This document shows, piece after piece, positions 19,112 through 33,165 of a stretch of 64,000 nucleotides of DNA. Source of the DNA: Zymoseptoria tritici IPO323 (Eukaryota; Ascomycota; Dothideomycetes; Mycosphaerellales; Mycosphaerellaceae); NCBI RefSeq assembly GCF_000219625.1, contig NC_018201.1:18179-82178 (forward strand), in the 5' to 3' direction. The position numbers were made by a program, and so were the translations under genes. Within the stretch, counting starts at the first letter, position 1; each line of letters starts with the position of its first letter. Below the pieces are notes generated by a model, which searched no databases, was not told where the DNA came from, and saw only the letters and a list, made by a program, of their open reading frames with translations.

Positions 19112-21071
19112 CTAAGTCTGAGCAAGGGCGTCGTGATAGAATTGTGGTAGATCTTGATGAGTGGCTCCTGGATCGCGGCGGTTGAAGTGCTGAGAGTTCT
19201 GACGGTTCAGGTTGTTGAAGTTCTGAGGGTTCTGACGGCTCAAGTTGTTGTTGTTGCTGTATGGCAGATTCTGGCCAATCTCACGGCTGACCACTTGGGC
19301 CCGTTGAGGGTCGTACAGCTTGGGCCCTTGGTTGGGCTGCCACTGTTGCTGCTGGTGTTGAGGGGCTTGAGGGGTGGATTGCCGCTGCTGTTGATATTGT
19401 GGCTGCACCGGCGTGGTCTGGCGTGGAGGTTGGTGCCATGGGGATTGCGACTGCGAGCGAGGTGGTGGCGGAGACGTGTATCGCTGCTGTTGCTGCTGGT
19501 ATTGGGTTTGCGGATAGTGGTAATTGGACTGCTGTGGGTATGGTTGGTGGTATTGCGGAGGGAAGGTCTCTGACGATGCTTCCGCGTAGTTCACTTGCTT
19601 GAAAGCCACCTTCTTCGCAGTCGTGTTGGTGATGGCACCGACTCTCAGTGCGAGCTCGGCGGGGACTGGTTTACCAAGGAGGGTGAGCTGTGTGAACTCA
19701 GCCAATGTCTCTCTCTCTTGTTGAGTCTGTTCCTCAACGCGCATGCGTTCATCTGATTCCATTTGACGTTGGCAAGACTCAATTCGGTGAACAGTGGATC
19801 GGAGGGTTTTAGTGGCTGGTTCCTTGTTGACGAGAGATCGGAGTTCCCTGTTGTGAAGGCCCTTCTTGAAGCGGTTGATCGCAGCGATGAGCATTCCGCC
19901 AGTGTTGCCAGCTTGATCAGATGAGTCCTGTAATTCAGCTTCTTGCAACAGAATGCTAGCGCGCTCGTGGTAGTCCTTCAAGGGCTCGGTGGTGCCTTGC
20001 GAGATGTTCAGCAGCAGCTCAATGGCCGCGCTCACATCAGTGTCAGTCTCATCAACTTCCCACTTCTTGAGGAACGCAGAGGTGATACAGCCAACTGCCT
20101 CGTCTGAAGGGTTGTTGAGCCATTGCTTGAGAGCCTTTTCAGCCCACTTGATTGCTGGACCTTCCATGAGCAGATCAAACGCTTCAATCCATGATTCCGA
20201 GTCTGAACCGGCAGCACGCTCTTGGCGCTTGAATCGGCCCATCCAGCGGCGTGCATTTTGAGAGCCATCGAATCGCTCGACAGGCTCCAAACGTGTGGCC
20301 ATTGCGGCGGTAGCTGTGGTGGCTGCCGAGGTGATGGTTGCGGTGGTTGATGGGGTGGTGGTGTGGGCAGCGGCTCGAGACGGTGGTCTGGTCGGTGTGG
20401 TTGGGTCTGATTCGGACGATGGCATGCTCTCAGTCGACTGAGGGCTCTGTATTCTGATCGATAGTATTTGCTGTGGCTCAGCGGTTGGTAGTGGAGCTGT
20501 TGATTTGCGGCGTTGTTCCGCGACTGGAAATGGTCGTGCCGATTGCACTGGCTCTCGGCGCTGCTCAGCGGCTGATGGTGGATTCCACGACGTTCCAATG
20601 CTGTGGTGGTGAGAGTCAATGTATACCCTCTTGCTGCTCTCCTGCGGAGCTGGTGGCTGGTGCGCAGTGTAGCTGCGATCAGTGAACACAGAGCGTTTGC
20701 GTGTGTATCGCGGATTTGGTGTGAACTCAGCTCTGCGTGGTATCCGTATACCGGAGTCTGTGTTGGCAATTGATTAGCAAAGTTTCCGAACGCCGTTCTG
20801 AGTTTCAAGAGTCCTCACCTTCACCACCCTTGACATCACGGGCTGGCGCGCGAGAGTTGTAGCCGTTGATGACGTTCATCGTATTGCTGCCCAGTGGTCG
20901 CCGGTTTCTCACATCCTGTCGGCCATATCTGCCCCGACCAGCACCACTGATACCGGTTCCAGACCCAGGAGAGCTCCCACTTGTGGCCTGCGGACTGCCT
21001 TGCTGCTGCTGTTGAGCGTGATGGTTGTTCTCGTCTGATCCGCCATTTCCCACCCCATTGCTTATTCCCAT
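19112..21071 (-). CDS. Gypsy gag (capsid) with a spliceosomal-type intron
   Basis: Minus strand. Exon 1 starts at the ATG at 21071 (MGISNGVGNGGSDENNHHAQ). A 61-nt intron at 20758-20818 (GTGAGG donor, TGCTAATC branch, CACAG acceptor) joins in phase to DSGIRIPRRAEFTPNPRYTR. Capsid-like sequence follows: VERFDGSQNARRWMGRFKRQ, EAFDLLMEGPAIKWAEKALK and AAINRFKKGLHNRELRSLVN, matching the retrotransposon gag fold. The C-terminal third is Gln/Pro/Asn-rich. The ORF ends at a TAG (19112-19114) followed in frame by the zinc knuckle, so the TAG is probably a mutated Gln. A separate short frame at 21077-21268 (EPFSADEYNDLVAYSQEKDK) may be a further 5' part. Confidence 0.85.
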
Positions 21072-31582: not shown

Positions 31583-32161
31583 CCTACACTCCTTTTACTT
31601 TTCCTTATTTGTTTTTCTTTAAAGTCCTTCGATACTAGCTTGCTACTATCCTAGGCACGGGTCTTTCCCTAAGGTCAAGAGATACGAGAGAACAACGATT
31701 GTACATAGATAGACTGCTGTCGCGAGACAGCCGTCCTACATAGTCATAGACTTATACAGGACGTAAATGGAACAAACAAACAAACAAACAAACAAACAAT
31801 AGTAGATTTAATAGTAGGCTCGATAATAGAGAGTATAATCTAGGTTTAGACGACCGGGATAAATTCGATAGCGGAAGGTATAAGAACGGTAATACTATAA
31901 TAGAAGACGGATTTAAGTCTCCTCTACGGCGACTACCTATATAAAGATTTAATAACTAAGGTAGACCGGTACTACTAATGTTTACTAATAGTCGAACGTA
32001 AGGTTAATAACCTACTACTACGTTTAATCGATAGCTTAGTAGTCTAATACCTACTATACGGTATACCTATAATCCTCGCTATCGTTAGCGTTAAGTTTCT
32101 ATAGGTAAGACTTTATATATAGTCTAGATATATTATATACTTCTTACTTAGATAGCCGGTT

Positions 32162-32345
32162 TGTCACAGGCTGTGCCTTGGGGTTCAGCTTGGCTTTGCC
32201 AAGCCTTAAAAGTGGGGCGCAATCTGAGAACCCGTTCTCAGATTCTGGTCTTTTGGCTTCCTTTTGGCCCAGTGGTAAAGCGCCCCACCCTGGAACCCAA
32301 AGGTCGCCAGTTCGAGCCGGAGCTTTCCCCGGCCGGACCCTGACA
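32162..32345 (+). repeat. TRIM LTR 1 (divergent subtype)
   Basis: 184 bp. Hairpin arms AATCTGAGAAC (32221-32231) and GTTCTCAGATT (32234-32244). A-box-like TGGCCCAGTGG at 32265-32275, then a TTCGAGCC B-box-like motif. It differs from LTRs 2 and 3 at many sites, including paired changes in the hairpin. Confidence 0.88.
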
Positions 32346-32349
32346 TAAA

Positions 32350-32533
32350 TGTCACAGGCTGTGCCTAGGGCATGGGCTTAGGCTGCGCCAAGCCTTTAAA
32401 AGTGGGGCGCAATTTCAGAACACCGTTCTGAAATTCTTGTCTTTTGGCACTTTTAGCCCAGTGGTAAAGCGCCCTACCCTGAACCCCAAGGTCGCTAGTT
32501 CGAGCCGGAGCTACCACCGGCCGGACCCTGACA
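32350..32533 (+). repeat. TRIM LTR 2
   Basis: 184 bp. Hairpin arms AATTTCAGAAC (32411-32421) and GTTCTGAAATT (32425-32435). It differs from LTR 3 at about six sites, four of them CpA-to-TpA type (including one that breaks the A-box TGG to TAG). Confidence 0.88.
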
Positions 32534-32545
32534 TAATTTCAGAAC
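32534..32545 (+). promoter_or_regulatory. Candidate self-primer binding site
   Basis: AATTTCAGAAC begins one base after LTR 2. It is the exact 11-nt complement of GTTCTGAAATT inside the LTR, so a transcript starting there could fold back and prime on this site, as known for Tf1/sushi elements. No tRNA-type TGG start is present. Confidence 0.6.
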
Positions 32546-32689
32546 AAAAAGGGTCGTAGTGCGTTGTTAGATGCGCCTCGGCTCACACGCGTGCATTGCA
32601 TGCGTAGGGGCTGCTTTTAAAGGCACCCCCTACCTTCCAATCCGTGCGACCGGAGAGGTTACACGGTACCCGCTCGTCTGCCTGTGTAT

Positions 32690-32717
32690 AGGAGAGAGCG
32701 GGGCGGGGGAGGGGAGG
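32690..32717 (+). promoter_or_regulatory. Polypurine tract of the TRIM
   Basis: A G/A run (GAGAGAGCGGGGCGGGGGAG and on to GGGGAGG) ends three bases (TAA) before LTR 3, the expected place for plus-strand priming. One C interrupts it. Confidence 0.65.
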
Positions 32718-32720
32718 TAA

Positions 32721-32904
32721 TGTCACAGGCTGTGCCTGGGGCATGGGCTTAGGCTGCGCCAAGCCTTTAAAAGTGGGGCGCAATTTCAGAACACCGTTCT
32801 GAAATTCTTGTCTTTTGGCACTTTTGGCCCAGTGGTAAAGCGCCCCACCCTGAACCCCAAGGTCGCCAGTTCGAGCCGGAGCTAACCCCGGCCGGACCCT
32901 GACA
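32721..32904 (+). repeat. TRIM LTR 3 (best preserved)
   Basis: 184 bp. A box TGGCCCAGTGG at 32825-32835 and B-box-like AGTTCGAGCCG at 32868-32878, about 33 bp apart, as in internal pol III promoters. A 9-bp stem GTGGGGCGC (32773-32781) / GCGCCCCAC (32840-32848) encloses the hairpin AATTTCAGAAC/GTTCTGAAATT. The tRNA-like part does not fold into a good T-arm, so it is not a tRNA gene. Confidence 0.88.
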
Positions 32905-33000
32905 CGGTTAGGCTAATAGTTAAACCGCGGAAGGTAAGTAAGGTATCGGTAATACCGTTATATTAATCTTAGGTACGATAGCTTATACTCGAAGGTTATA

Positions 33001-33165
33001 TACGCTATATTAAGTCTACGCTATATTAAGTCTACGCTATATTAAGTCTACGCTATATTAAGTCTACGCTATATTAAGTCTACGCTATATTAAGTCTACG
33101 TATAAAGTTATTAAGTCTACGTATAAGTCGTTATTAAGTCTACGTATAAATCGTTATCTCCGGTA
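33001..33165. repeat. 16-bp tandem repeat and derivatives
   Basis: Unit ATTAAGTCTACGCTAT, six perfect copies followed by longer variants with TCTACGTATAAA. Lies in RIP-saturated DNA. Confidence 0.85.

Follow-up and report, generated by a model that had tools for sequence, protein, structure and literature searches.

A 743-bp LTR element of Zymoseptoria tritici with tRNA-like boxes and a site complementary to its own LTR: a probable self-primed TRIM

An LTR element with three LTRs

The window analysed here is a stretch of 64 kb (G000:C18:18179-82178), and the genome searched comprises 39.69 Mb in 21 contigs. Elsewhere in the window, a gene on the minus strand (19112-20689) shows 90% identity to a protein of Z. 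tritici. At window positions 32162-32904, an LTR element of 743 bp is flanked by the target site duplication CGGTT (32157..32161 and 32905..32909). Three LTRs of 184 bp each, with the ends TGTCA...TGACA, are arranged in the order LTR1-TAAA-LTR2-187 bp-LTR3. The LTRs, their palindrome arms and boxes, the TATA-like and TTTT sequences, the internal region, its site and the polypurine tract lie on the plus strand; the target duplications and the TAAA spacer (32346..32349) carry no strand. LTR1 (32162..32345) belongs to subfamily B, while LTR2 (32350..32533) and LTR3 (32721..32904) belong to subfamily A and form the 5′ and 3′ LTR of the A unit. LTR1 is 86% identical to LTR2 and 88% identical to LTR3. 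LTR2 and LTR3 share 97% identity, and four of the six differences between them are of the RIP type. The internal region (32534..32720, 187 bp) is non-coding, and the longest stop-free stretch of the element in six frames spans 106 aa. A polypurine tract, GGGGCGGGGGAGGGGAGG, containing one C (32700..32717), is followed by TAA and LTR3. A preliminary description of the locus had listed the length of 743 bp, the 184-bp TGTCA...TGACA LTRs, the CGGTT duplication, the polypurine tract and the lack of coding capacity. We recovered all of these, but the number of LTRs had to be raised from two to three. An LTR element of less than 1 kb without coding capacity, with a candidate priming site after the 5′ LTR, a polypurine tract before the 3′ LTR and a target duplication, corresponds to a TRIM.

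The LTR contains a palindrome of the form AATTTCAGAAC-ACC-GTTCTGAAATT. Its U3 arm, AATTTCAGAAC, occupies positions 32411..32421 in LTR2 and 32782..32792 in LTR3, and its R arm, GTTCTGAAATT, lies at 32425..32435 and 32796..32806, respectively. The R arm of LTR2 is the putative RNA start and primer. In LTR1, the corresponding sequences are the U3 arm AATCTGAGAAC (32221..32231) and a primer-like 11-mer, GTTCTCAGATT (32234..32244). In LTR3, the palindrome with the primer and the A box both lie between the arms of another perfect inverted repeat, GTGGGGCGC (32773-32781) and GCGCCCCAC (32840-32848). A 16-bp tandem repeat, TACGCTATATTAAGTC, several copies of which are identical, begins approximately 90 bp past the element (33001-33112).

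The TAAA spacer between LTR1 and LTR2 equals TA, the two bases after the 5′ LTR, plus AA, the two bases before the 3′ LTR. Judged from these bases, it may resemble a two-LTR junction of the retroviral type. The array could then have arisen from a type B and a type A cDNA that were joined end to end and integrated in a single event, with the B unit collapsing to an LTR. A tandem insertion could likewise have produced the three-LTR array.

Copies of the element in the genome

LTR searches of the genome returned at least 19 and at least 22 matches, and a search with the internal region at least 5. The LTR alignment comprised 18 of the 22 matches and omitted the truncated ones (L012, the 5′ LTR of L017, the L013 remnant and L093). 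Seven internal regions were readable at six loci, namely the window copy, L009, L010, L013 with two tandem units (L013a and L013b), L016 and L017. The 5-bp sequences on the two sides are equal for the window copy (CGGTT), L009 and L010 (both ATAGG), L016 (GTTAA) and across L012-L013 (CTAAG), as well as for four solo LTRs, L011 (CCGCT), L014 (GGTAC), L015 (GATAA) and L018 (GTAGC). L017 has a truncated left LTR and unequal flanks. On the basis of the equal flanks, we conclude that the TRIM family was mobile and used an integrase. Duplications of 5 bp are also known from the Tf1/Tf2, Tj1 and sushi-type elements.

Two minor observations concern the insertion sites. Although L009 and L010 lie on different contigs, ATAGG is duplicated at both and is followed in both by CT, so that a preference for certain targets is conceivable. 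At G000:C9:1391392-1398518 (L012, L013, L094), another LTR-like sequence, TGTCACATCTGCC...TTTTACA, bounds about 6.9 kb within a TRIM LTR. This insert is flanked by an exact 17-nt duplication, CCTACCCTGAACCCCAA, which is long for an LTR element.

A site complementary to the own LTR

In all seven internal regions, a T directly after the 5′ LTR is followed by an 11-nt site. This site is exactly complementary to 11 nt found at position 73-76 in the 3′ LTR of the same copy. Compared with the 5′ LTR of the same copy, the match is exact in five of seven cases; L009 has one mismatch, and the 5′ LTR of L013a is too short for the comparison. In the window copy, the site AATTTCAGAAC (32535..32545) starts one base past LTR2, and its complement GTTCTGAAATT begins at LTR position 76 in both LTR2 and LTR3. 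The preliminary description had noted this 11-mer and its exact complement within the LTR, had interpreted the pair as Tf1-like self-priming and had asked whether the complement accompanies the 5′ LTR in every full copy. Its presence in seven of seven internal regions, with site and LTR co-varying between two subfamilies, answers this question positively and supports the interpretation. By chance, the GTTCTGAAATT 11-mer appeared in 2 of 20,000 dinucleotide shuffles of LTR3.

Across the family, the site occurs as AATTTCAGAAC, its RIP form AATTTTAGAAC, AATCTGAGAAC and AATCTAAGAAC. The sites of subfamily A (AATTTCAGAAC) and subfamily B (AATCTGAGAAC) differ at 2 of 11 positions, with matching changes on the LTR side. 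One of the two differences is a C/G change, which RIP cannot make. This co-variation between the subfamilies counts as a single event in evolution. As to the third sequence of the site, AATCTAAGAAC, RIP acting on type B on both sides may have produced it. L010 is a chimera whose LTR and site are of type B, while 66 of the 68 nt that follow the site equal the type-A window copy. The site of L010 thus matches the type of its LTR and not the adjoining internal sequence, the signature of a primer by which the site is re-encoded. Type C is represented here by solo LTRs only, and self-priming predicts that full-length type C copies should have the site AATCTTAGAAC.

According to the mechanism suggested by these matches, the TRIM RNA would start at GTTCTGAAATT within the 5′ LTR, and its first 10-11 nt would loop back to pair with the site that follows the LTR. 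A cleavage would then release these 10-11 nt, which would prime minus-strand DNA synthesis with proteins supplied by a Ty3/Gypsy helper. Because such a primer would re-encode the site in each new copy, the LTR 11-mer and the site would remain matched. The presumed leaders of the window copy, L010 and L016 folded with a primer-site pairing of 0.98-0.99. Leaders with shuffled middles, however, reached the same pairing in 16, 40 and 21 of 100 cases, respectively. Since the shuffled controls often paired equally well, the folding adds nothing beyond the 11-bp match.

Candidate helper elements

Four Ty3/Gypsy regions were examined in full (L090, L099, L100 and L101). L090 (C1:5975000-5983500) has identical 184-bp LTRs with the ends TGTCAC...ATGTCA, a 5-bp duplication, CCGTC, and open frames of 771 and 1355 aa, including an open pol frame. 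After its LTR, 10 nt complement one place in the own LTR. The LTRs of L099 (C18) reach 99.6% identity across their blast match, and its pol is split into several frames; two bases after its LTR lies a 9-nt complement to one place in the own LTR. According to Pfam, L090 and L099 each have a reverse transcriptase, an RNase H domain and an SH3 domain like that of Tf2-1, and a chromodomain was called in L099, not in L090. A Transposon Tf2-6 polyprotein (59%) is among the relatives with a name that the L090 reverse transcriptase has. The arrangement seen in the TRIM thus recurs in both readable Ty3/Gypsy elements, or two of the four examined: L100 yielded no LTR pair, and the LTR pair of L101, in which no complement was seen, runs past the end of the region.

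TRIM copy L017 and L090 have the tract GAGAGGGGGGGTA before the 3′ LTR in common, and beyond this tract no helper sharing LTR or internal sequence with the TRIM was found. In eight comparisons between the TRIM and L090 LTRs the signal was weak, the best value being 11 of 1000 shuffles, and no sense-strand similarity between the TRIM LTR and a helper LTR was clearly above chance. The pairing of TRIM and helper therefore rests on mechanism and geometry and not on homology. A genome search with the L090 LTR led to three places, two of them in L090 itself and the third in an 84% copy, L098. The pattern of the PBS flank was found, with up to three mismatches, at 279 places at least; among the matches listed, it was exact at six TRIM sites only, and TRIM copy L017 showed two mismatches. 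The single place listed with one mismatch, L044, was rejected by eye, as no TRIM LTR adjoins it. The pattern of the border between tract and LTR occurred at 10 places, compared with 2 for the reversed control. Six of them are at TRIM copies, one of these (C7:1843029) being merely the duplicated target of a solo LTR, and one is L090. Of the other three, L095 shows no obvious element, and L096 and L097 have the look of a border between tract and LTR in unrelated families.

Taken with the two Ty3/Gypsy elements, the exact and co-varying complementarity suggests that the element is probably a non-autonomous TRIM with self-priming of the Tf1/sushi type, which would obtain its proteins from a Ty3/Gypsy element in this genome that is itself self-primed.

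tRNA-like boxes and the transcribing polymerase

For the search for tRNA-type promoter boxes, the patterns TRGYNNARNGG (A box) and GTTCRANNC (B box) were used, and pairs at a spacing of 35-60 nt were accepted. All three LTRs contain such a pair at 44-45 nt. The A-box 11-mer is TGGCCCAGTGG in LTR1 (32265..32275) and LTR3 (32825..32835) and TAGCCCAGTGG in LTR2 (32454..32464), and the B box is GTTCGAGCC throughout (32310..32318, 32498..32506 and 32869..32877 in LTR1, LTR2 and LTR3, respectively). These are the only three pairs on both strands of the 64-kb window, which holds 13 single A and 8 single B motifs on the plus strand and 7 and 6, respectively, on the minus strand. Of the 18 aligned LTRs, 8 have a strict A box, a count that rises to 18 once RIP changes are tolerated, and 16 retain the B box. 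Strict pairs across the alignment keep the spacing of 44-45. At up to two mismatches, a 17-mer covering the A box was found at 23 places in the genome, 20 in TRIM LTRs and 3 elsewhere, with 5 for the control. The Rfam scan of the element gave seven matches up to E 10, all below the gathering score and none of them a tRNA or 5S RNA. ARAGORN called no tRNA in the element at default settings; seven low-scoring, intron-bearing calls under relaxed settings were discarded. Thus, the tRNA likeness of the LTR segment is one of motifs.

The motifs and their surroundings bear on which polymerase would make the RNA. The putative start lies at LTR position 76 and the A box at 105, and TTTT runs, each a possible pol III terminator, begin at LTR positions 93 and 102 (32442..32445 and 32451..32454 in LTR2), the last base of the second being the first base of the A box. 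One more TTTT is located in the internal region. Pol III is disfavoured because the two runs separate the putative start from the A box. A TATA-like sequence, TTTAAAAG (32395..32402), is found 30 bp upstream of the putative start in LTR2. Together with the lack of a tRNA fold in Rfam and default ARAGORN, these features are consistent with a self-primed TRIM that is transcribed by pol II from TTTAAAAG, with boxes that are relics of a tRNA or SINE or that bind TFIIIC without making the transposition RNA. Against this reading stand the A and B pair, which at a spacing of 35-60 nt arose in only 1 of 20,000 dinucleotide shuffles of LTR3, and the retention of the B box. In addition, transversions affect 1 of 55 columns at LTR positions 105-157 versus 18 of 133 elsewhere (Fisher p 0.015), a test made on related copies and with region limits chosen after the boxes had been seen. 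In some fungi, moreover, a TATA box also accompanies pol III. On balance, we give pol II about an even chance of making the RNA, and we consider transcription by pol III from the A and B boxes possible rather than probable. Of the tRNA-like promoter proposed in the preliminary description, the A- and B-box-like motifs in each LTR stand as sequence, and the TTTT runs speak against its use by pol III.

A further likeness concerns L099, whose LTR (locus 897-1143) contains an antisense, duplicated stretch resembling a tRNA T arm. A 25-nt stretch at the TRIM B box matches the antisense L099 LTR at 22 of 25 positions, a value reached by none of 1000 mononucleotide shuffles.

Comparison with known elements

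TRIMs with tRNA-like LTRs have been described in fungi as Helenus or TRIMp3, and these are considered tRNA-primed (Kojima 2024, PMC10886601). Like the element described here, Helenus is a TRIM of less than 1 kb in fungal hosts with tRNA-type A and B boxes in the LTR, 5-bp target duplications, a PBS and a polypurine tract. The PBSs of Helenus, however, match tRNAs, in fungi mostly anticodon loops in a Copia-like manner (PMC10886601), whereas the site of our element matches its own LTR and its likely helper is of the Ty3/Gypsy type. An ordinary Helenus-type TRIM, primed by the anticodon-loop half or another inner segment of a tRNA and with a secondary LTR match, would agree with the tRNA-like LTR, the 5-bp duplications, the size and the frequency of anticodon-loop sites in fungal Helenus (PMC10886601). 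The host tRNA list used here comprised 63 scored of 1206 candidates, and spliced tRNA halves could still serve as primers. However, the site lacks the initial TGG of a conventional tRNA 3′-end site, which the preliminary description had named as a possible finding in intact copies, and at the 18 places outside the TRIM where the two 11-mers occur in the genome, ARAGORN detected no tRNA. Moreover, the site co-varies with the LTR, and PMC10886601 reports no complementarity between the tRNA-like LTR sequence and the PBS; "self-prim" does not occur in its main text. As far as these comparisons reach, we therefore regard tRNA priming as very improbable. As a tRNA-matched site was looked for and not found, we did not file the element as Helenus.

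It is equally hard to credit that the site merely duplicates the U3 arm by accident and takes no part in priming: the palindrome AATTTCAGAAC-ACC-GTTCTGAAATT makes any copy of this arm a complement of the R arm, but the site is identical to the U3 arm in only four of seven copies and complementary to the R arm in all seven, follows the R arm where the arms differ (L009, L013b and L017, some differences being of the RIP type), and has a counterpart in L090, from whose LTR the site sequence itself is absent.

Self-priming was first shown for Tf1 and has been reported for Tj1 and others (PMC4600332, PMC6934838). As in our element, the site after the 5′ LTR of Tf1/Tf2, Tj1 and sushi-type Ty3/Gypsy elements complements an LTR segment at the presumed 5′ end of the RNA, and these elements differ in being autonomous and encoding Gag-Pol, whereas the TRIM is non-coding and bears tRNA-like boxes (PMC4600332 for the known elements). 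Since Ty3/Gypsy-type Gag and Pol are not encoded, the element works like Tf1/sushi without being a full member of this group. Cassandra and Ajax, the 5S-type TRIMs, likewise have a small-RNA promoter sequence in the LTR, but it is 5S rRNA sequence, combined in Ajax with a tRNA-Leu site (PMC10886601), in contrast to the tRNA-like boxes and self-match of our element, in which the seven Rfam matches up to E 10 included no 5S RNA.

In Z. tritici, published libraries contain one TRIM consensus, of the same class and host species as our element, for which the text consulted gives no anatomy (PMC10652580, PMC12612061). An earlier pangenome study screened for TRIMs with LTR-Finder (PMC7014611). The preliminary description had known of no such element in fungi. 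Fungal TRIMs with tRNA-like LTRs were already known from Helenus (PMC10886601), and what seems new is their combination with self-priming, each half being known. We found no literature joining self-priming and pol III boxes in a TRIM in a search that excluded most subscription papers, Repbase and the Z. tritici TE libraries. The element would unite two specialisations that were previously known separately, namely reverse transcription by self-priming and TRIM LTRs with promoter motifs of small RNAs. With it, the range of tRNA-box TRIMs would reach an ascomycete, as the fungal Helenus hosts listed so far are all Basidiomycota (PMC10886601, Table 1). Through the alleles of LTR and site that match each other, and through the chimera L010, the re-encoding of the site by the primer becomes visible in the genome, so that nature itself provides a test of the Tf1 model in a fungus other than fission yeast.

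Self-priming requires an exact RNA 5′ end, which a pol III promoter might set. We consider it possible rather than probable that the element is a self-primed TRIMp3 of an ascomycete, with pol III promoter and primer in the same LTR, which would have arisen apart from Helenus and depend on a Ty3/Gypsy helper of the Tf1/sushi type instead of a Copia helper. If so, a single short pol III transcript would be both template and primer, and only helper proteins would be needed.

tRNA-like genes beside Copia elements

A side observation relates to tRNA counts in this genome. For 48 of 58 tRNA-model matches, a match to Copia reverse transcriptase lies at a start-to-start distance of 844-1491 bp, in all 48 cases on the opposite strand. 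We found no literature on a Copia family with an antisense tRNA-Cys-like gene. At each of the four loci that were read, L068-L071 (C17:450387, C18:143406, C6:1719281 and C10:1258953), a 73-nt tRNA-Cys(ACA)-like gene resides within repeated sequence. Apparently, then, a tRNA-Cys-like gene is carried in antisense by a Copia family, and tRNA counts would be falsely raised by it.
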